From positions 1 through 22,186 of the IMG/VR virus record IMGVR_UViG_3300046010_005167: a DNA stretch of 22,186 bases; one strand, 5' to 3'. The notes under the pieces are model-generated. The model saw nothing but the letters and a program-made list of their open reading frames with translations. It was not told the origin of the DNA and ran no database searches. Below, one piece after another: positions 8,346 through 22,155 of the stretch. The translations under genes and the position numbers were made by a program. The DNA comes from a virus. Every line of letters starts with the position of its first letter. Positions within the stretch are counted from its first letter, which is position 1.

Positions 8346-8684
8346 ATGAGTGATAAATATAACATTGAAGATATTATCAATTTTTCAGCGACGGAAAACC
8401 CTTTGAATGTCAAGCAAGCAGTTGATTCATTGATGTTGTCAAAGATTCATGCTGCTATTGAAGGCAAGAAAAGAGAAGTCGCAATGTCTATGTTCGGCGG
8501 CGAAGGTAAAGAAGAAGCCGGATGGGACGATGAGAAATGGGAAGATGATGAAGAAGATGAAATAGAGGACGATGAAGAGTTCGACATTTCTGATGATGAC
8601 CTTGATGATCTATTGAGTGATTTAGACGATATTGACGATGTAGACCTTGAAGATGACGAAACTTCGGATTCAGAGGAAAAATAA
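8346..8684 (+). CDS. 67: Prohead core protein gp67
   Basis: A 112-aa protein in the position of T4 gene 67, directly after the portal gene. The N-terminal half carries a short helix-forming part, SLMLSKIHAAIEGKKREVAMSMF (about 28-50). This resembles the LIKEEKIAIARNFL part of T4 gp67 and is followed, as there, by a very acidic tail of Asp/Glu with few other residues (about 56-112). T4 gp67 (80 aa) is a minor but essential core component cut by gp21. The start is ATG 8346 after AGGAG (8330-8334). A closer ATG at 8339 opens only four codons. The strong acidity would balance the basic neighbour at 8687. Confidence 0.85.
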   Translation: MSDKYNIEDIINFSATENPLNVKQAVDSLMLSKIHAAIEGKKREVAMSMFGGEGKEEAGWDDEKWEDDEEDEIEDDEEFDISDDDLDDLLSDLDDIDDVDLEDDETSDSEEK

Positions 8685-8686
8685 AA

Positions 8687-9604
8687 ATGGCAAAGTCATT
8701 AGACAACATTCTAGGTGGTTATACACCTAAAGCAAAGGGCGAACAAGAATTCGTCGCAAAACACGAAATTAAAGTCACGCCAGATGCTAACAAGAATGGC
8801 GATGATGTATTTAAGGCCTCGAAGGTAAAAACTGTCAAGCGTTCTCCTGAACGTCACGGCTATGATAAACCGCAGGACGAAAAAGTCCATGAGGAAATCA
8901 TGACTTCTGCGGACAAGAAAAAAGAAAAGAAGTTGAAAGCAAAGTATGATGACTCAGGAATGAAGTCGTCAATGCAAAAGCAATACGGCGCTGAAAAAGG
9001 CAAGCAAGTTTACTTCGCAACCATTCGCAAGCAAGCAATGGAAGCTGTTGAAGTCACTGAAGGTTTGAAGTATGCACAAGTCGAACCCAAAGACGTAAAA
9101 TCAGTTCTAGCAGCACATCGCGCAACTGGCGAATCTGCTCGTCATATGGGTGACGGTAAAATTGCATATTCTGGTAAAAAACTTGTAACTTCACAAAATG
9201 AAGCAGTTGAAGTCGAGGAAGAAAAGAAGGGTCTTTATTACTACGTCAATCGTCGTAAGAGACTAGGTATCAGCAGACCCGCAGGTCACCCAAAGGCTCC
9301 GACCGCACAAGATTTCAAAAACGCAGCAAAAACTGCAAAGGAATCTGTTGAACTTGATGAAGGCGTTGCACAGGACGCATACAACACTCACCACAAGCGC
9401 GCAATGAAAGCAGTTGAAGACCTTGCAAAACATTTGATGAAGCACAAAGCAAACTGTGACAAATCAGACAGCAAATGGGCACATTCTGACAACCTATGGC
9501 AAATGAAAAACATGTCTACTCAACTAGAGGACATGGTTCATAATATTGCTTCACAGAATGAACAATCTGCAGAACGCGACAAAAATATGATTGGTAGGAT
9601 CTAA
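8687..9604 (+). CDS. Modular lysine-rich prohead protein in the gene 68 position
   Basis: A 305-aa basic protein between gp67 and the protease region, where T4 has core gene 68 (141 aa). It looks built from blocks. Residues 1-117 are Lys-rich and hold a QKQYGAEKGKQVYFATIRKQ motif (97-116). Residues 127-170 are a short block. Residues 181-217 have GLYYYVNRRKRLGISRPAG. Residues 227-305 are helical and His/Lys-rich. The blocks are separated by three similar acidic links, MEAVEVTEG (118-126), NEAVEVEEE (171-179) and KESVELDEG (218-226). The first and third end in V/L-x-E-G, like gp21 cleavage sites. A role as prohead core or internal cargo cut during maturation is inferred. Homology to gp68 itself is not shown. 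GAGG lies 10 bases before the ATG. Confidence 0.6.
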   Translation: MAKSLDNILGGYTPKAKGEQEFVAKHEIKVTPDANKNGDDVFKASKVKTVKRSPERHGYDKPQDEKVHEEIMTSADKKKEKKLKAKYDDSGMKSSMQKQYGAEKGKQVYFATIRKQAMEAVEVTEGLKYAQVEPKDVKSVLAAHRATGESARHMGDGKIAYSGKKLVTSQNEAVEVEEEKKGLYYYVNRRKRLGISRPAGHPKAPTAQDFKNAAKTAKESVELDEGVAQDAYNTHHKRAMKAVEDLAKHLMKHKANCDKSDSKWAHSDNLWQMKNMSTQLEDMVHNIASQNEQSAERDKNMIGRI

Positions 9605-9606
9605 TC

Positions 9607-9972
9607 ATGCCGATCATCAATAATAAAAAAGGTTTATCTGCAGTCGTTCATTTGACTTCAAATGCGACAATCACTATTGCTGGTAACAGTTCTGTTAGCA
9701 ACGTTGCAATCGGTGATGAAACAGTAGTCGGCGCATATATTTCTCAAATCTGGTATGGCTCCGCAAACGGAGCGACTGGTTATTGGGAAGTCAAAAGAGG
9801 GTCAAACACTGTAGGTGTTTTCTCCGGAACAGGTTACATGGATTTTGCTGGCAACGGTATTGCGTTAAACAATGATTCTACCGCGACGCTTGTTGCTAAT
9901 TTGAATTCTGCTGCTGCAGGATTTATCGTTGTTGAATTGACAAAAAATCCTACAACTAGCGTTTATTCATAA
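9607..9972 (+). CDS. Small beta-rich virion protein, possibly capsid decoration
   Basis: A 121-aa protein I cannot place in a named family. It is rich in Gly, Ser, Thr, Asn and Val with alternating hydrophobic residues (TITIAGNSSVSNVAIG, GYWEVKRGSNTVGVFSGTGY), which suggests a small beta sandwich. It has no signal peptide, membrane segment or cysteine. It lies between the gene-68-position protein and the prohead protease, inside the head operon, and starts two bases after the previous stop with a weak AGGAT site. The context and fold type suggest a capsid surface or head-fibre component. That is inference only. Confidence 0.5.
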   Translation: MPIINNKKGLSAVVHLTSNATITIAGNSSVSNVAIGDETVVGAYISQIWYGSANGATGYWEVKRGSNTVGVFSGTGYMDFAGNGIALNNDSTATLVANLNSAAAGFIVVELTKNPTTSVYS

Positions 9973-9983
9973 GGTATAAAGAC

Positions 9984-10655
9984 ATGAAGTTAATTTTAGA
10001 AGATATCGAAGATGTAAAGTATATCACCGAAAAGCGTGAAGACGGTAAGAAGAACCTATACATTGAAGGTATCTTCATGCAGGGTGGTATCAAAAATCGT
10101 AACGGAAGAATCTATCCTGTTGACGTTTTAGTCAATGAGGCGACCCGCTACACTAAATCATTGGTTGAAGCAAAACGAGCATATGGTGAACTAGGTCATC
10201 CTAACGGTCCTTCAATCAACCTTGATCGCGTTTCACACAGAATAGTTGAATTGCGTCAAATTGACAAAACCGGAAATATTTACGGAAAAGCACAGATCCT
10301 CGACACTCCTATGGGCAACATTGCTCGTGGTATTATCGAATCTGGCGGTTCTCTAGGTGTATCATCTAGAGGCATGGGAAGCATCAAAGAGAGCAACGGC
10401 ATCAAAGAAGTGCAATCTGACTTCTTCCTTGCAACGGCAGCTGATATTGTTGCAGATCCTTCTGCACCCGACGCTTTCGTCCAAGGCATCATGGAAGGTG
10501 TCGATTGGGTTTGGGATAATGGCATCCTGAAAGCACAGCAAATCGCTGCACACACGCAGCGTGAAATCAATGAGGCTTCTTCATCAAGAACATTGACTGG
10601 TGATAGAAAACTTGAAATTTTTGAGGCATTCTTGGACCGTTTGGTGCAGAAATAA
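9984..10655 (+). CDS. 21: Prohead core protease gp21
   Basis: A 223-aa serine protease of the T4 gp21 family (T4: 212 aa). The N-terminal half has GIFMQGGIKNRNGRIYP (29-45), and the catalytic His is expected in GELGHPNG (His72). The nucleophile Ser is in GVSSRGMG (Ser127 or 128), followed by DFFLATAADIVADPSAPDAF, typical of the family. It is made as a zymogen inside the prohead, cleaves gp22, gp67, gp23 and itself, and is then degraded. A site Ile195-Asn-Glu197 before Ala198 near the C-terminus fits the (I/L)-x-E rule and may be its own processing site. AAGGT lies eight bases before the ATG. The gene ends before the late promoter of gene 22. Confidence 0.95.
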   Translation: MKLILEDIEDVKYITEKREDGKKNLYIEGIFMQGGIKNRNGRIYPVDVLVNEATRYTKSLVEAKRAYGELGHPNGPSINLDRVSHRIVELRQIDKTGNIYGKAQILDTPMGNIARGIIESGGSLGVSSRGMGSIKESNGIKEVQSDFFLATAADIVADPSAPDAFVQGIMEGVDWVWDNGILKAQQIAAHTQREINEASSSRTLTGDRKLEIFEAFLDRLVQK

Positions 10656-10712: not shown

Positions 10713-11681
10713 ATGCTAAGCAAGCAAGAAAAAGACCTTATTGAAAAGGTTGTTTCTGGTGGTGGAGCTACTGGCCAGTCAATGACAGCTGATCCTACTG
10801 GTTCTGTTGCACAGGCACCAGGCAATTCAAAGAAGCAAGGCGATTCTATGCCTAAGTCACAAAATCCCGCAGGAACCGGTGTCGAAGAAACCGATCCTGA
10901 AAATAACGTTAAGCCAACTGGCGACATGTCAGCGCAAAACAAGGCATCTGTAGCAATGAAAGGTTCTGCAGTGAAAGAAGATCTCGCAGGTATTTTCGGA
11001 GACTCATTGACCGAAGAGCAACTAGAAAAAGCATCTGCATTGTTTGAAGCAGCAATCGCAATCAAAGTTGCACAAATCGAAGAAGATTACGCAGTAGCAC
11101 TTGATGAAGAAGTTGCAGATGTCAAAGCGGCATTGACTGAACAAGTCGATCAGTATTTGTCATTCGTTGCTGAAGAGTGGATTGCAGAAAACGAAGTTGC
11201 AATTGAATCTTCATTGAAGAACGAATTGACCGAAGAATTCATCGAAGGCCTAAAGAACCTATTCGCTGAGCACTACATTGATGTTCCTTCTGACAAGATC
11301 GACGTTCTAGAATCATTGGCGTCAGAAGTCGAAGAACTCAAATCACAACTAAACAATGAGATCAATGAAAAGATTGAACTCAAGAATACCATCAACTCAT
11401 ATTCATTGAAGGACACCTTTGCAGAAGTTTCTGAAGGTCTAACATTGACTCAAGTTGAAAAGTTCCGTGTAATCGCAGAGAGCCTAGAATTCAATGGCGA
11501 CCTAGATTCATACAAGGGCAAACTAGAAACTATCAAAGAGAACTATTTCTCTGGTAAACCAGTCGCTACTTCAAACATTCTAACCGAAGAATTTGAAAGT
11601 GACAGCTCATCTGCAGCACCTGCTGTAACTGGCGAGATGGGTAAATACGTATCAGCTATTTCAAGAACGCTTAAGAAATAA
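10713..11681 (+). CDS. 22: Prohead scaffold protein gp22
   Basis: A 322-aa acidic, largely helical core protein, slightly longer than T4 gp22 (269 aa). Residues 15-75 are a low-complexity Gly/Ser/Pro/Gln-rich linker absent from the T4 layout. The family core is the helical stretch with AEEWIAENEVAIESSLKNEL, FIEGLKNLFAEHYIDVPSDK and a following coiled coil (SEVEELKSQLNNEINEKIEL). It forms the inner core around which gp23 assembles and is destroyed by gp21. Glu-rich sites such as LFE before Ala and VSE before Gly could be cut. AGGAG (10701-10705) lies seven bases before the ATG. It has its own late promoter, and gene 23 follows behind another. Confidence 0.94.
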   Translation: MLSKQEKDLIEKVVSGGGATGQSMTADPTGSVAQAPGNSKKQGDSMPKSQNPAGTGVEETDPENNVKPTGDMSAQNKASVAMKGSAVKEDLAGIFGDSLTEEQLEKASALFEAAIAIKVAQIEEDYAVALDEEVADVKAALTEQVDQYLSFVAEEWIAENEVAIESSLKNELTEEFIEGLKNLFAEHYIDVPSDKIDVLESLASEVEELKSQLNNEINEKIELKNTINSYSLKDTFAEVSEGLTLTQVEKFRVIAESLEFNGDLDSYKGKLETIKENYFSGKPVATSNILTEEFESDSSSAAPAVTGEMGKYVSAISRTLKK

Positions 11682-11730: not shown

Positions 11731-13080
11731 ATGAATATGTTAGCTGAGGAAATCTCAAAGAAGTGGGCACCTGTGCTTGAACACACAGAACTCACACCTA
11801 TCAAAGACGCTCACCGTAGAGCAGTTACCGCTCAACTTCTAGAAAACACTGAGCGTGAACTTCGCGTTACTGCAGGCTACAACCAGCAACTAAACGAAGC
11901 AGGCATTCCTGTAAACGCAATGGGCGGTTCATCTTCTGATGCATCTACCGGCGCAATCGACACTTTCGACCCAGTGCTTATCTCATTGGTTCGTCGTGCG
12001 ATGCCTAACCTAATCGCATACGACATCTGCGGCGTTCAGCCAATGACTGGTCCTACTGGACTTATCTTCGCTATGCGTTCACGTTATGCAAACCAGACCC
12101 ACACTGAAACCTTCTACAACGAAGTTAACACTGCGTTCTCTACTGTTGCTTCTGGTGCAAACACCATCGGTAACAAGCACGTAGGTCAGTTCCCTGGCGA
12201 TTCTAACACCACTGCACTTTCTGCTGTCAACACCTACAACTACGGTGCTGGTATGTCAACTGCACAAGCAGAAGCACTTGGTACTGATTCTAATGCTGCT
12301 TTCGCAGAAATGGCATTCTCAATCGAGAAGGTCACTGTCACTGCAAAGAGCCGTGCATTGAAAGCAGAATACACCATGGAACTCGCACAAGACTTGAAGG
12401 CAGTTCATGGTCTTGACGCAGAGTCAGAACTATCTAACATTCTTTCTGCTGAAATTCTTGCAGAAATCAACCGTGAAGTAGTTCGCACAATCAACCTAAC
12501 CGCAGTTGCAGGCGCACAAGACAATACCACAGCAGCTGGTATCTTCGACCTTGACACCGACTCAAATGGTCGTTGGTCAGTTGAAAAGTTCAAGGGCTTG
12601 ATGTTCCAACTAGAGCGTGAAGCGAACCAGATCGCTAAGCAAACTCGTCGTGGTAAGGGTAACATCCTACTCTGCTCTTCTGACGTTGCATCAGCACTTC
12701 AGATGGCAGGCGTGTTGGATTACACACCAGCTCTAAACAGCAACAACCTACAAGTTGACGATACTGGAGCAACCTTCGCAGGTGTTCTAAACGGTCGTCT
12801 ACGTGTTTACATCGACCCATATGCAATCGGTGGTAACTATGCAACAGTAGGCTACAAGGGTTCTAGCGCATTCGACGCTGGTCTCTTCTACTGCCCATAC
12901 GTTCCGCTACAAATGGTTCGTGCAGTCGATCCTGCAAGCTTCCAGCCAAAGATCGGCTTCAAGACACGTTATGGCATGGTTGCAAACCCATTTGCACAAG
13001 GTGCTAACGTTGGTTCAGGCGCATTGACTTTCAATACAAACGTCTACTACCGTCGTTTGATCGTCAACAACCTAATGTAA
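11731..13080 (+). CDS. 23: Major capsid protein gp23
   Basis: A 449-aa HK97-fold capsid subunit of the short type (T4: 521 aa). An N-terminal propeptide is followed by Leu-Asn-Glu56 before Ala57, matching the FLAE/A cleavage context of T4 gp23, so the mature form probably starts at Ala57. The next block, RRAMPNLIAYDICGVQPMTG (about 90-109), is a gp23 hallmark. Further blocks include AFSIEKVTVTAKSRALKAEY, GLDAESELSNILSAEILAEINREV and GNYATVGYKGSSAFDAGLFY. GGGAG lies ten bases before ATG 11731, which favours it over ATG 11737. Codons ending in C (AAC, TTC, GAC, ACC) are more frequent than in the replication genes, fitting high expression. A strong terminator follows. Confidence 0.98.
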   Translation: MNMLAEEISKKWAPVLEHTELTPIKDAHRRAVTAQLLENTERELRVTAGYNQQLNEAGIPVNAMGGSSSDASTGAIDTFDPVLISLVRRAMPNLIAYDICGVQPMTGPTGLIFAMRSRYANQTHTETFYNEVNTAFSTVASGANTIGNKHVGQFPGDSNTTALSAVNTYNYGAGMSTAQAEALGTDSNAAFAEMAFSIEKVTVTAKSRALKAEYTMELAQDLKAVHGLDAESELSNILSAEILAEINREVVRTINLTAVAGAQDNTTAAGIFDLDTDSNGRWSVEKFKGLMFQLEREANQIAKQTRRGKGNILLCSSDVASALQMAGVLDYTPALNSNNLQVDDTGATFAGVLNGRLRVYIDPYAIGGNYATVGYKGSSAFDAGLFYCPYVPLQMVRAVDPASFQPKIGFKTRYGMVANPFAQGANVGSGALTFNTNVYYRRLIVNNLM

Positions 13081-19630: not shown

Positions 19631-20225
19631 TCCTAGGTTGAAAGAAGGGGCAACGATCAAATTTGACGTTGCCAATCCTCCGATTAATCAAATTGATTGG
19701 AAACCGATTGACCCTGTAAAACTCGCAATTGATCTGACAGAAACAATGCTAAATGGCAATGGTATGGGGTTGTCAGCGCCTCAGGTTGGTATTCCGTTCA
19801 ATGTTTTCGTCATCAAATCAAATCCTGTGATCGCAGTTTTTAATCCTAAAATCGTTGACAAAAGCACAGAACAAATTTATCTTGAAGAAACGTCCTTGAC
19901 AACTCCAGGATTATCTGTTAAAATCAAACGACCTAAGAAAATCAAAGTTCGTTACACTATGCCCAATGGTGAAACAGTGACTGAAATTTATGATGGATTG
20001 ACTTCTCGTATTTTCCAGCATCAAATGGATTATCTTGAAGGTGTGCTGTTTACGCAACGTGCGTCACTTTATCACAGAGAAAAAGCGTTTAAAGATCAGA
20101 AAAAACTTTTAACTTCGCTAAATAAACCGAAACCTCAACTAATACTTAATAACAATGCCCATGTAGGAGGAAAACCATGGCAAGATACGTCTCAACAAAA
20201 ACCTATAAGCAAATTGGTCCTGTAG
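19602..20225 (+). CDS. Peptide deformylase-like protein with degenerate active site
   Basis: A 207-aa protein starting MILNLLQESDPRL, as many deformylases do. Motif 1 is intact: GMGLSAPQ (54-61). Motif 2, normally EGCLS with the metal-ligand Cys, reads ETSLT (96-100), so Ser98 replaces Cys. Motif 3, normally HExDH, reads HQMDY (140-144): the catalytic Glu is Gln and the second metal His is Tyr. Only His140 remains of the metal site. The rest of the fold still looks good (VFNPKIV, RPKKIKVRYT, YLEGVLF), with no stop or frameshift, so it may be a conserved pseudoenzyme rather than a decaying gene. The C-terminal tail past about 165 is unusual, and its last 49 bases overlap queD. ATG 19599 is an alternative start. 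Confidence 0.85.
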   Translation: MILNLLQESDPRLKEGATIKFDVANPPINQIDWKPIDPVKLAIDLTETMLNGNGMGLSAPQVGIPFNVFVIKSNPVIAVFNPKIVDKSTEQIYLEETSLTTPGLSVKIKRPKKIKVRYTMPNGETVTEIYDGLTSRIFQHQMDYLEGVLFTQRASLYHREKAFKDQKKLLTSLNKPKPQLILNNNAHVGGKPWQDTSQQKPISKLVL

Positions 20226-20635
20226 CATACCGCCAATGGCGTGCTGACAGTCATTGTAACCTGATCCACGGTTATGCACTTTCATTCCATTTAGAATTTG
20301 AATCTGATACACTCGATGCCCGCAATTGGGTGGTCGACTTCGGAGGATTGAGACCACTCAAGGGTATGCTTGAAGATTGGTTTGACCATACACTTCTAGT
20401 TGCAGAAGATGATCCAAAGAAAGAAGATTTACTCGAACTAGGCAAGAAAGGTCTTGCGAAAATCACACTAGTTGAAAAGACAGGGTGTGAAGGTATCGCA
20501 GATTTCCTATATGACTACATCAATGAACAGTTCCTTCCCACCTATGGTTGGGGTGGCAGAGTTTGGTGTTGCAAAGTCGAAGTTCGTGAAACTGATGCAA
20601 ATATGGCAATGAGAGTGGGTCACCGCGGTGAGTAA
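20177..20635 (+). CDS. queD: QueD-like 6-carboxytetrahydropterin synthase
   Basis: A 152-aa member of the QueD/PTPS family. Seen: SHCNLIHGY (25-33) with the catalytic Cys27 and His31, FDHTLL with Asp70/His71, CEGIADF with Glu105 and VEVRET with Glu136, all at family positions. Two expected zinc-ligand His are Tyr here: AYR (Tyr18) instead of AHR, and HGY (Tyr33) instead of HGH. This may mark a phage subfamily with another metal site or a different activity. In the known pathway QueD turns the FolE product into 6-carboxytetrahydropterin, which QueE uses. A perfect AGGAGG (20165-20170) lies six bases before the ATG. It overlaps the deformylase-like gene by 49 bases and queE by 8. Confidence 0.85.
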   Translation: MARYVSTKTYKQIGPVAYRQWRADSHCNLIHGYALSFHLEFESDTLDARNWVVDFGGLRPLKGMLEDWFDHTLLVAEDDPKKEDLLELGKKGLAKITLVEKTGCEGIADFLYDYINEQFLPTYGWGGRVWCCKVEVRETDANMAMRVGHRGE

Positions 20636-21476
20636 AATTAAAGTATCGGAGCTATTTTATTCTCTCCAAGGTGAAGGAAAATACATCGGTGTCCCATCAA
20701 TTTTTCTCCGCACTTTCGGATGTAATTTCACATGCGATGGATTTGGAATGCGCCGATTTGAAAAGAGTGTTGAGAGATTCAACGTCAATCCTGACAACTA
20801 CAGCGATTACAAGCAACTACCTCTCGTCAATACAGGATGCGACTCGTATGCATCATGGGACCCGAGATTCAAACACCTTTCCCCTATGCTCACTGTCGAA
20901 GCAATCGTGGACGAAATGCAGCGGTTACTCCCGGACAACAAGTTCGGTCGTGACCAGCACCTCATCATCACTGGCGGCGAACCCCTACTTGGGTGGCAAA
21001 AATCTTTCCCGTCTCTCATTGACGAAATCATCAACCGAAAGATGGGTCTCACTGACATTACCTTTGAAACTAATGGAACCCAGACATTACATTCTGACTT
21101 CCATGAATACTTGACAAACCTTTCAGATCATGTTAAAGTAACATGGTCGGTATCTGCTAAGTTGACAGTTTCTGGTGAAGCATGGAATGAGGCAATCAAA
21201 CCTGCTGTTGTCAGTAACTACATGACTGTCCGCAAAAGCGATACCTATTTGAAATTTGTTGTTGCCAATATTGATGACATTAACGACGTGCATCAGGCAG
21301 TAGCAGAATACAAAGATTACGGTGTCGATGTGCCTGTTTATTTGATGCCTGTTGGCGGAACAAACAACACTTACATTATGAACGAGCGTGCAGTTGCAGA
21401 TTTCTGCAGAGACAATGGATTCAGATTCAGTCCTCGCATTCAAGTGCCGCTCTACAAAAACGCATGGGGAACCTAG
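20628..21476 (+). CDS. queE: QueE-like 7-carboxy-7-deazaguanine synthase (radical SAM)
   Basis: A 282-aa radical SAM protein with a GTG start (20628) inside the end of queD. The N-terminus is typical of QueE: VSELFYSLQGEGKYIGVPSIFLR. The iron-sulfur cluster region reads GCNFTCDGFG, giving Cys32 and Cys36. The third Cys of a CxxxCxxC motif is missing at 39; the next candidate is Cys71 in VNTGCDSYASWD. So the site is split by an insert of about 34 residues. The SAM-binding GGEP motif (ITGGEPLLGWQ, about 113-123) and TFETNGTQ are present. QueE converts 6-carboxytetrahydropterin to 7-carboxy-7-deazaguanine, the precursor of preQ0. The folE start follows the stop by one base. Confidence 0.88.
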   Translation: MSKIKVSELFYSLQGEGKYIGVPSIFLRTFGCNFTCDGFGMRRFEKSVERFNVNPDNYSDYKQLPLVNTGCDSYASWDPRFKHLSPMLTVEAIVDEMQRLLPDNKFGRDQHLIITGGEPLLGWQKSFPSLIDEIINRKMGLTDITFETNGTQTLHSDFHEYLTNLSDHVKVTWSVSAKLTVSGEAWNEAIKPAVVSNYMTVRKSDTYLKFVVANIDDINDVHQAVAEYKDYGVDVPVYLMPVGGTNNTYIMNERAVADFCRDNGFRFSPRIQVPLYKNAWGT

Positions 21477-21477
21477 A

Positions 21478-22155
21478 ATGATTTCTAAAGTTATCAAAGA
21501 TCGTATCGAAACTTCTGGCGGACGCTACTTTGCGTCTGACAACATTTCACAGTATATTAATCCAGAAGAACATGATATGTTGATCGCGGAGTTGACTGAT
21601 AAGTTCAATAGTGTTCTGGATTCATTGATTATTGATCGTGCAAAGGATCCGAACTCACAAGGGACCGGTAAACGTCTAGCAAAGATGTATGTCAACGAAA
21701 TCATGGCGGGTCGATATGAACCGCAACCTGATGTTGCAGCATTTCCTAACGATGGTTACAACAAATATACAGGTATGCTTGTTGTTCGTTCTGAAATTAA
21801 ATCTCTTTGTTCACATCATCACCAACCTGTCAAGGGTGTTGCATATATCGGAGTCATTCCAGGTGAAAAAGTCATCGGTTTGTCTAAATACAGTAGAATC
21901 GCACAATGGTGTGCAAGACGAGGAACCTTGCAGGAAGAACTGTGCAACGAAGTCGCCAACCAAATTCGTAAAGCAACTAGCAGTGATGACATTGGTGTTT
22001 ATATCGCTGCTACTCATGGATGCTGCGAAAATCGCGGTATTATGGCACACTCTTCATTGACGCAAACGACTGTATTACATGGTGCGTTCCATCAACCTGA
22101 TGTGAAAAAAGAATTCTTCGATTCTATAAAACTACAAGAAATGCATATCAAGTAA
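21478..22155 (+). CDS. folE: GTP cyclohydrolase I (FolE)
   Basis: A 225-aa enzyme starting MISKVIKDRIETSGG; an in-frame extension into queE is rejected because this ATG directly follows the queE stop. The type I cyclohydrolase core is clear: MLVVRSEIKSLCSHHHQPVK (100-119), GEKVIGLSKYSRI (129-141), LQEELCNEV (151-159) and ATHGCCENRGI (178-188). Zinc ligands Cys111, His114 (or 113) and Cys182 are present. The usual CEHH reads CSHH, a Glu-to-Ser change. The enzyme opens GTP to dihydroneopterin triphosphate, the first step for QueD and QueE, so the three genes form one pathway. The remaining 31 bases of the window contain no recognisable feature. Confidence 0.92.
   Translation: MISKVIKDRIETSGGRYFASDNISQYINPEEHDMLIAELTDKFNSVLDSLIIDRAKDPNSQGTGKRLAKMYVNEIMAGRYEPQPDVAAFPNDGYNKYTGMLVVRSEIKSLCSHHHQPVKGVAYIGVIPGEKVIGLSKYSRIAQWCARRGTLQEELCNEVANQIRKATSSDDIGVYIAATHGCCENRGIMAHSSLTQTTVLHGAFHQPDVKKEFFDSIKLQEMHIK

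Follow-up and report, generated by a model that had tools for sequence, protein, structure and literature searches.

P0001, a 305-amino-acid (aa) protein encoded in the window (the whole 22,186-nucleotide stretch of viral DNA analyzed here), is a string of small modules joined by conserved acidic links. It belongs to a family that occupies the gp68 slot of the head gene cluster and gains and loses whole modules at these links. P0001 may well be a cargo protein of the prohead core, not homologous to gp68, whose mature form would remain in the head as a multidomain internal protein. Internal head proteins and the capsid-targeting sequence (CTS) are already known; searches of Pfam, PHROGs, NCBIfam, the isolate records covered, and the literature consulted returned no large uncultured family of strung, shuffled modules at the gp68 position.

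The family is a would-be counterpart of the T4 internal proteins in abundant aquatic T4-like phages, which are known mainly from environmental sequences. At a fixed position of the head cluster, whole modules turn over while neighboring genes stay 80 to 95% identical, and this turnover readily supplies candidates for injected domains. The link motif, together with the cleavage site model described below, also provides a handle on whether head proteases make peptide cocktails.

Head gene cluster surrounding P0001

The cluster in the window reads TerL, sheath, tube, portal gp20, gp67 homologue, P0001, small beta protein, gp21, gp22, and gp23, and the nearest isolates by DNA are Kyanoviridae. The genes from the gp67 homologue onwards are as follows.

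8346..8684, + strand: gp67 homologue, 112 aa, acidic-tailed, directly upstream of P0001
8687..9604, + strand: P0001, open ORF with an ATG start, 305 aa, net charge +12, pI 9.3
9607..9972, + strand: small protein, 121 aa, beta-rich by sequence, between P0001 and gp21
9984..10655, + strand: gp21 prohead protease (Pfam Peptidase_S77, E value, 1.6e−34; phrog_207, E value, 5e−76)
10713..11681, + strand: gp22 scaffold (Pfam T4_CASP, E value, 1e−54)
11731..13080, + strand: gp23 major capsid protein (Pfam Gp23, E value, 2e−152), predicted maturation site QLNE56|A57

The 112-aa ORF was identified as a gp67 homologue when a profile of 57 slot ORFs was compared with a set of six gp67 sequences (E value, 5e−7; hhalign probability, 92.4%). 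As the order in T4 is gp20-67-68-21-22-23, P0001 sits in the gp68 slot, sharing with gp68 its location between gp67 and gp21. Despite this likeness in position, P0001 was rejected as a gp68 homologue: the N- and C-terminal blocks of its family gave hhalign E values of 0.17 and 0.34, respectively, against a gp68 profile, comparison with T4 gp68 alone gave a probability of 8%, and the Arg/Lys-rich C terminus of gp68 is absent. A search for a gp68-like ORF within the window found none. P0001 overall had no match in Pfam, PHROGs, or NCBIfam except a weak one to phrog_16028 for module B, and the 121-aa small beta protein was without a match in Pfam and PHROG searches. In two other loci (L004, 5627 to 7258, and L016, 2875 to 4512), a protein of ∼545 aa takes the place of the small beta protein, separating the slot gene from gp21.

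Elsewhere in the window (20177 to 22155), PTPS/QueD-like, radical-SAM (QueE-like), and GTP cyclohydrolase I genes lie in series, with a peptide deformylase gene immediately upstream. This series suggests 7-deazaguanine synthesis, possibly for DNA modification.

Modular architecture of P0001

Alignments of relatives and block profiles divided P0001 into the following segments.

8687..8896, + strand: conserved N-terminal block (N-block), residues 1 to 70, common to the family
8897..9043, + strand: module A, residues 71 to 119 (...QYGAEKGKQVYFATIRKQAM), movable, in 21 proteins of differing architecture
9038..9064, + strand: link 1, MEAVEVTEG, residues 118 to 126, counterpart IEEG in L003
9062..9196, + strand: module C, residues 126 to 170, missing from L004, L180, and L184
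9197..9223, + strand: link 2, NEAVEVEEE, residues 171 to 179
9224..9340, + strand: module B, residues 180 to 218, net charge +9, precisely missing from L003
9338..9364, + strand: link 3, KESVELDEG, residues 218 to 226, the only P0001 link with Leu/Ile at P3
9365..9562, + strand: module D, residues 227 to 292, predicted helical hairpin

An earlier note on this DNA had described basic blocks of differing composition joined by three similar acidic links. The links are present at exactly the residues it gave, the block it quoted (QYGAEKGKQVYFATIRKQ) spans residues 99 to 116, and two of the links do literally end in Val/Leu-x-Glu before Gly (VTE|G and LDE|G). Net charges agree with basic blocks (N-block, +4; A, +5; C, +4; B, +9) and acidic links (−3, −5, and −3), although module D, at +1, is only weakly basic.

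The structure model of the whole protein was poor (pLDDT, 55.9) and of low confidence over most of its length, including links 2 and 3 and the segment after link 1. Module A alone was predicted as a three-helix domain (AlphaFold2 pLDDT, 85; pTM, 0.67); a known fold was rejected, with no match in a PDB search and with other phage hypothetical proteins as the top BFVD matches. Copies of module A in most of the other proteins share 65 to 79% identity with it; the module is also found in cyanophage proteins whose genes neighbor those for primase, cytidylyltransferase, and RNR. Module B is a freestanding gene of ∼50 aa (phrog_16028) in many phages, lying among head genes, and between head and tail genes, in the two T7-like cyanophages examined. 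Module D adjoins other modules in six relatives (L135, L136, L146, L171, L180, and L184).

Two further modules of the family were compared with known domains. Module F was considered as DUF6321, but in the Sf-CH8 protein DUF6321 spans residues 330 to 400 (Pfam) and module F residues 275 to 314, so these are different domains. Module I (HKIDANKNGKVDAHDF), at approximately residues 70 to 103 of the slot protein in L207, L160, L044, and their relatives, has the look of an EF-hand/dockerin-type calcium loop, at scores below the Pfam cutoffs.

The slot family and its module shuffling

Relatives were gathered from IMG/VR using three queries, namely, P0001 itself, gp21, and the N-block. With the N-block, at least 373 related IMG/VR loci were identified, compared with 0 of the 50,697 isolate records searched. 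From the relatives gathered by the three queries, 52 complete, nonredundant family proteins of 121 to 800 aa were retained. Of 67 loci, 65 have the portal gene immediately upstream, and gp21 is located downstream in 59 of 64. All share an architecture of a common N-block, a variable number of small modules, and an optional C-terminal block; the L138 protein consists of N- and C-blocks only. The pI exceeds 8 in only 40% of the family, so the description "basic DNA-binding cargo" is not true of all members. In L201 (3733 to 4113), the reading frame of an L193-type slot gene breaks after residue ∼110 in an apparent frameshift, reflecting either biology or an assembly error. One record encountered, L212 (Limnohabitans phage DC33; PQ492659.1), is a 39-kb genome recorded as Inoviridae and looks misclassified.

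Block profiles resolved the module string of P0001 as A-C-B-D, that of L003 as A-C-D, and those of L004, L180, and L184 as A-D, with the gp21 of L003 being 91% identical to that of the window. DNA alignment of these relatives placed the ends of the missing blocks inside links. In L003, the beginning of link 2 runs straight into the last part of link 3 (AACGAATCTGTTGAA|GAACTAGATGAAGCT), and in the L001/L003 comparison the join at module B falls inside a link; L004 carries one merged link, ESVEEIDEG. Modules also differ in order: L017 has A-E, L009 and L020 have E-A, and L016 has E-H-A, while E-F in L167 is F-E in L187 and L204. Block G is present in one to four copies per protein. Module strings differ in 21 of the 27 phage pairs whose gp21 identity is 80% or higher. 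With whole modules gained and lost at the links, and with blocks recurring elsewhere, the modular build with movable domains proposed earlier is confirmed, and the domain-level search suggested at that time for the same blocks in other orders was positive (A-E/E-A and E-F/F-E).

The mean charge is clearly basic for modules A, B, C, F, G, J, K, and M, acidic for E, and near neutral for D. Given the latter two, a single "DNA condensation" role misfits the module set as a whole.

Conservation of the acidic links

Compared pairwise, the three 9-residue P0001 links have 6, 5, and 4 residues in common. When P0001 was shuffled, at least as many similar 9-mer triples arose in 11% of shuffles, and within P0001 alone the link repeat is thus near chance. 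Likewise, [LIV]xE was not enriched in P0001 (4 seen; 3.6 expected). The longer motif E-x-[LIV][DE]E was seen twice against an expectation of 0.08 (P = 0.004), and across the 52 relatives it was seen 111 times compared with 11.1 ± 3.6 in shuffles; it is these family counts, rather than P0001 alone, that make the motif solid. Overall, 78% of links lay within 8 aa of a module edge compared with 28% of random positions, a partly circular count as the module seeds were partly cut at links. The idea that links serve as DNA recombination seeds kept alike by codon was rejected: identical codons made up 61.6% compared with 57.7% expected, indicating little homogenization.

Links compared with gp21 cleavage sites

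T4 gp21 cuts after L/I-x-E (PMC9026906). Its specificity in the present group was read from the conserved gp23 maturation site (FLTE65|A66 in T4 and QLNE|A here). In 95 relatives, P3 of this site was Leu in 90, Ile in 2, Met in 2, Phe in 1, and Val in none, with Ala at P1′ in 58, and none of the 62 distinct gp23 sites had Asp or Glu at P2. The links (n = 75) carried Leu, Ile, or Val at P3 in 42, 25, and 8 cases, Asp or Glu at P2 in 54 and 17 (71 of 75), and mostly Leu at P1′, compared with mostly Ala in gp23. None of the P0001 links resembles the cut site of the window's own gp23: P3 is Val in links 1 and 2, and link 3 (LDE|G) fits L/I-x-E but carries Asp at P2, a residue absent there from the 62 gp23 sites. 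A site model derived from gp23 scored −2.9 at Glu125 and −0.1 at Glu225, both lower than the top-scoring sites in the portal (3.2) and in the tail tube (3.2); the T4 portal is known to be uncut (PMC5694885). Across the family, the model counted 42 sites compared with 40.8 in shuffled sequences, i.e., no excess, although a model trained on one substrate leaves room for cutting at weaker sites. T4 gp21 cuts core proteins at many places. By the L/I-x-E rule alone, the links of L003 and L004 (IEE|G, LDE|A, and IDE|G) do qualify.

The links are conserved and acidic, yet appear unlike the known gp21 site of the group. The earlier proposals that they are gp21 sites, and that P0001 is a cleavable polyprotein, found no support from sequence given their acidic P2, the low model scores, and the lack of gp23-type sites in excess. 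A further conserved protease-like site (ALRE|A or ALRE|S) precedes the maturation site in the gp23 propeptide of many relatives; the gp23 of the window (ELRVTAG; 11731 to 11898) is without this site.

Capsid-targeting-like starts

Family proteins commonly start with sequences such as MAKTLKDFLE or MKTLKQILE, resembling the targeting heptads of T4 IPI and IPIII (MKTFKEF and MKTYQEF). With only the T4 heptads as reference, the median BLOSUM score of starts was 17 in the family compared with 1 for 384 background ORFs (P = 4e−26, with relatives being nonindependent). Scores of at least 16 were obtained by 31 of 52 family proteins and 6 of 384 background ORFs. P0001, with a degenerate start (MAKSLDNILG), scored only 5, a value matched or beaten by 31% of background ORFs, while L003 scored 12 and L004 17. 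The first [LIV]xE of P0001 is at residue 69, and no targeting-sequence cut site was found near residues 10 to 19; start cut sites of the L/I-x-E type are present in L004 (ILE|V) and L042 (IIE|L). Slot proteins of other loci that lack the N-block start alike (MKTYSEFMEA, MRTFKSFIQ, and MKSFKQFNEE). The earlier designation of P0001 as a prohead protein is thus backed by its head-cluster context and by the CTS-like start across the family but not by its own weak start; taken together, these sequence features suggest that P0001 probably enters the phage head during head assembly.

Three small, very basic slot proteins were also observed in L072 (3065 to 3678), L073 (1004 to 1620), and L074 (4705 to 5004), with strongly CTS-like starts (MKTYSEFMEA, MKTFKDFLDE, and MLSFKEFIAE, respectively).

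Linked-module proteins of cyanophages

S-CREM2 gp160, P-TIM68 AIR93496, and S-T4 AXQ70535 resemble the family in having modules (A, F, G, K, and M) and acidic links. They differ in being encoded near primase, cytidylyltransferase, or RNR genes, outside the head cluster, and in lacking the N-block; the S-CREM2 slot itself holds no P0001-type gene, only a 61-aa ORF. In gp160, modules K and M are joined by KKEETEISEGKK, and the acidic link reads ISE|G, with Ser at P2. This protein was found in virions with 7 peptides (13.1% coverage) in one study, whose authors warn of possible copurification (PMC10665884).

Cyanophage cytidylyltransferases have a T4-type targeting start with a gp23-like cut site, reading MKNFSSFLTE|A in L129 (S-CREM2; 20609 to 21469), MKSFTSFFTE|A in L121 (1710 to 2915), and MKSYKEFLSE|A in L039 (2464 to 3591). 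Such a start would explain the reported presence of this enzyme in virions of S-CREM2 (PMC10665884) and S-SM1 (PMC3037559). Near its N terminus and before K and M, gp160 (L129; 24343 to 25236) also carries a copy of the mature major capsid N-arm (GATGFTGAAAPEGPVAGYDPLMG compared with GADGFTGAAAPGGPNAGFDPVMIG).

Possible role of P0001 and alternative explanations

P0001 would be made with the other head proteins and would enter the growing core via its N-block, which begins with a T4-like targeting sequence in most relatives. Between this block and the optional C-block, small and mostly basic modules in changing series would be held by flexible acidic links, and recombination in or beside the links could add, remove, or reorder them. 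We infer that the protein is incorporated into the core with its modules riding in the head and that the mature form most likely survives in the virion with the DNA and may be delivered into the cell. Module turnover would then reflect selection on what the particle carries, for which T4 IPI is the precedent. Besides the synteny and the family starts, this reading draws on the virion detection of gp160, on the targeting starts of the cyanophage cytidylyltransferases, and on freestanding module B genes among the head genes of T7-like cyanophages; the weak start of P0001, the poor model of the whole protein, the pI range of the family, and the single-study basis of the gp160 detection speak against it.

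The cleavable polyprotein, in which gp21 cuts after Glu125, Glu178, and Glu225 to free small basic peptides and shuffling alters the peptide cocktail, is unlikely. It gains from the [LIV]-x-E in each link, from the L/I-x-E fit in L003 and L004 noted above, and from the strong conservation of links at module edges, largely in low-confidence and probably flexible stretches of the model; the ISE|G link of a virion protein, gp160, and the separate encoding of module B as a peptide in other phages point the same way. These points are countered by the acidic P2 and by the Val at P3 in two P0001 links, both foreign to gp23 sites, by the mostly Leu P1′, and by the site count being close to that of shuffled sequence. 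A rather unlikely version would have a large group of uncultured T4-like phages pack an exchangeable peptide set as one chain, with gp21 tolerating an acidic P2 of a kind absent at gp23 and recombination at links rewriting the set between close relatives; if so, the peptide set would be rewritten in the way of antidefense effectors.

It is doubtful that P0001 is an expendable core filler like T4 gp67 and gp68, which would shape the core and be degraded by gp21, its fragments leaving before packaging and its sequence nearly free. In T4, both gp67 and gp68 are cleaved into small peptides, which are presumably lost from the head, and gp68 is nonessential (PMC9958956). This precedent, the length range of the family, and the placement of P0001 in the gp68 slot beside a gp67 homologue, in a window without a gp68-like ORF, are consistent with filler. 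However, filler would not need modules that are conserved in sequence, confidently folded, and recurrent elsewhere, as exemplified by module A; in L074 and L102, a slot protein of this kind coexists with a distinct gp68-like basic ORF, and gp23-type sites are not in excess. Highly improbable is a nonhead protein that is expressed late, acts in the infected cell, and lies in the cluster by chance, its links being plain spacers. Modules encoded near primase, RNR, and cytidylyltransferase genes and the weak targeting signal of P0001 would suit such a protein, but 65 of 67 loci preserve the slot, and S-CREM2 virions yielded proteins, including a modular one, whose genes adjoin that for the cytidylyltransferase.

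Comparison with known systems

The T4 internal proteins are the classic example of packaging into a phage head followed by delivery into the cell along with the DNA, and at least one of them (IPI) counters a bacterial defense system. P0001 and its family resemble IPI, IPII, IPIII, and Alt as probable core cargo of a gp21-bearing phage, in family starts like MKTFKEF and MKTYQEFIAE|A, and in fast turnover between close relatives. P0001 differs from them in lying inside the head cluster, in its strung modules, in its degenerate start, and in having no L/I-x-E near residue 10. One of the T4 proteins, IPI, is an injected inhibitor of a restriction enzyme (PMC9026906, PMC9958956). The available parts of two papers on phiKZ and SPN3US (PMC5694885, PMC10052503) describe a gp21-like protease that cleaves head proteins at numerous positions and common N-terminal propeptides, the cleavage there removing propeptides, and contain no description of shuffled module strings. 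The small basic peptide of phrog_16028 matches module B (∼45 to 68% identity over the matched part) but is encoded by its own ∼50-aa gene, unjoined to other modules, and in two T7-like phages lies beside capsid, portal, or tail-tube genes.
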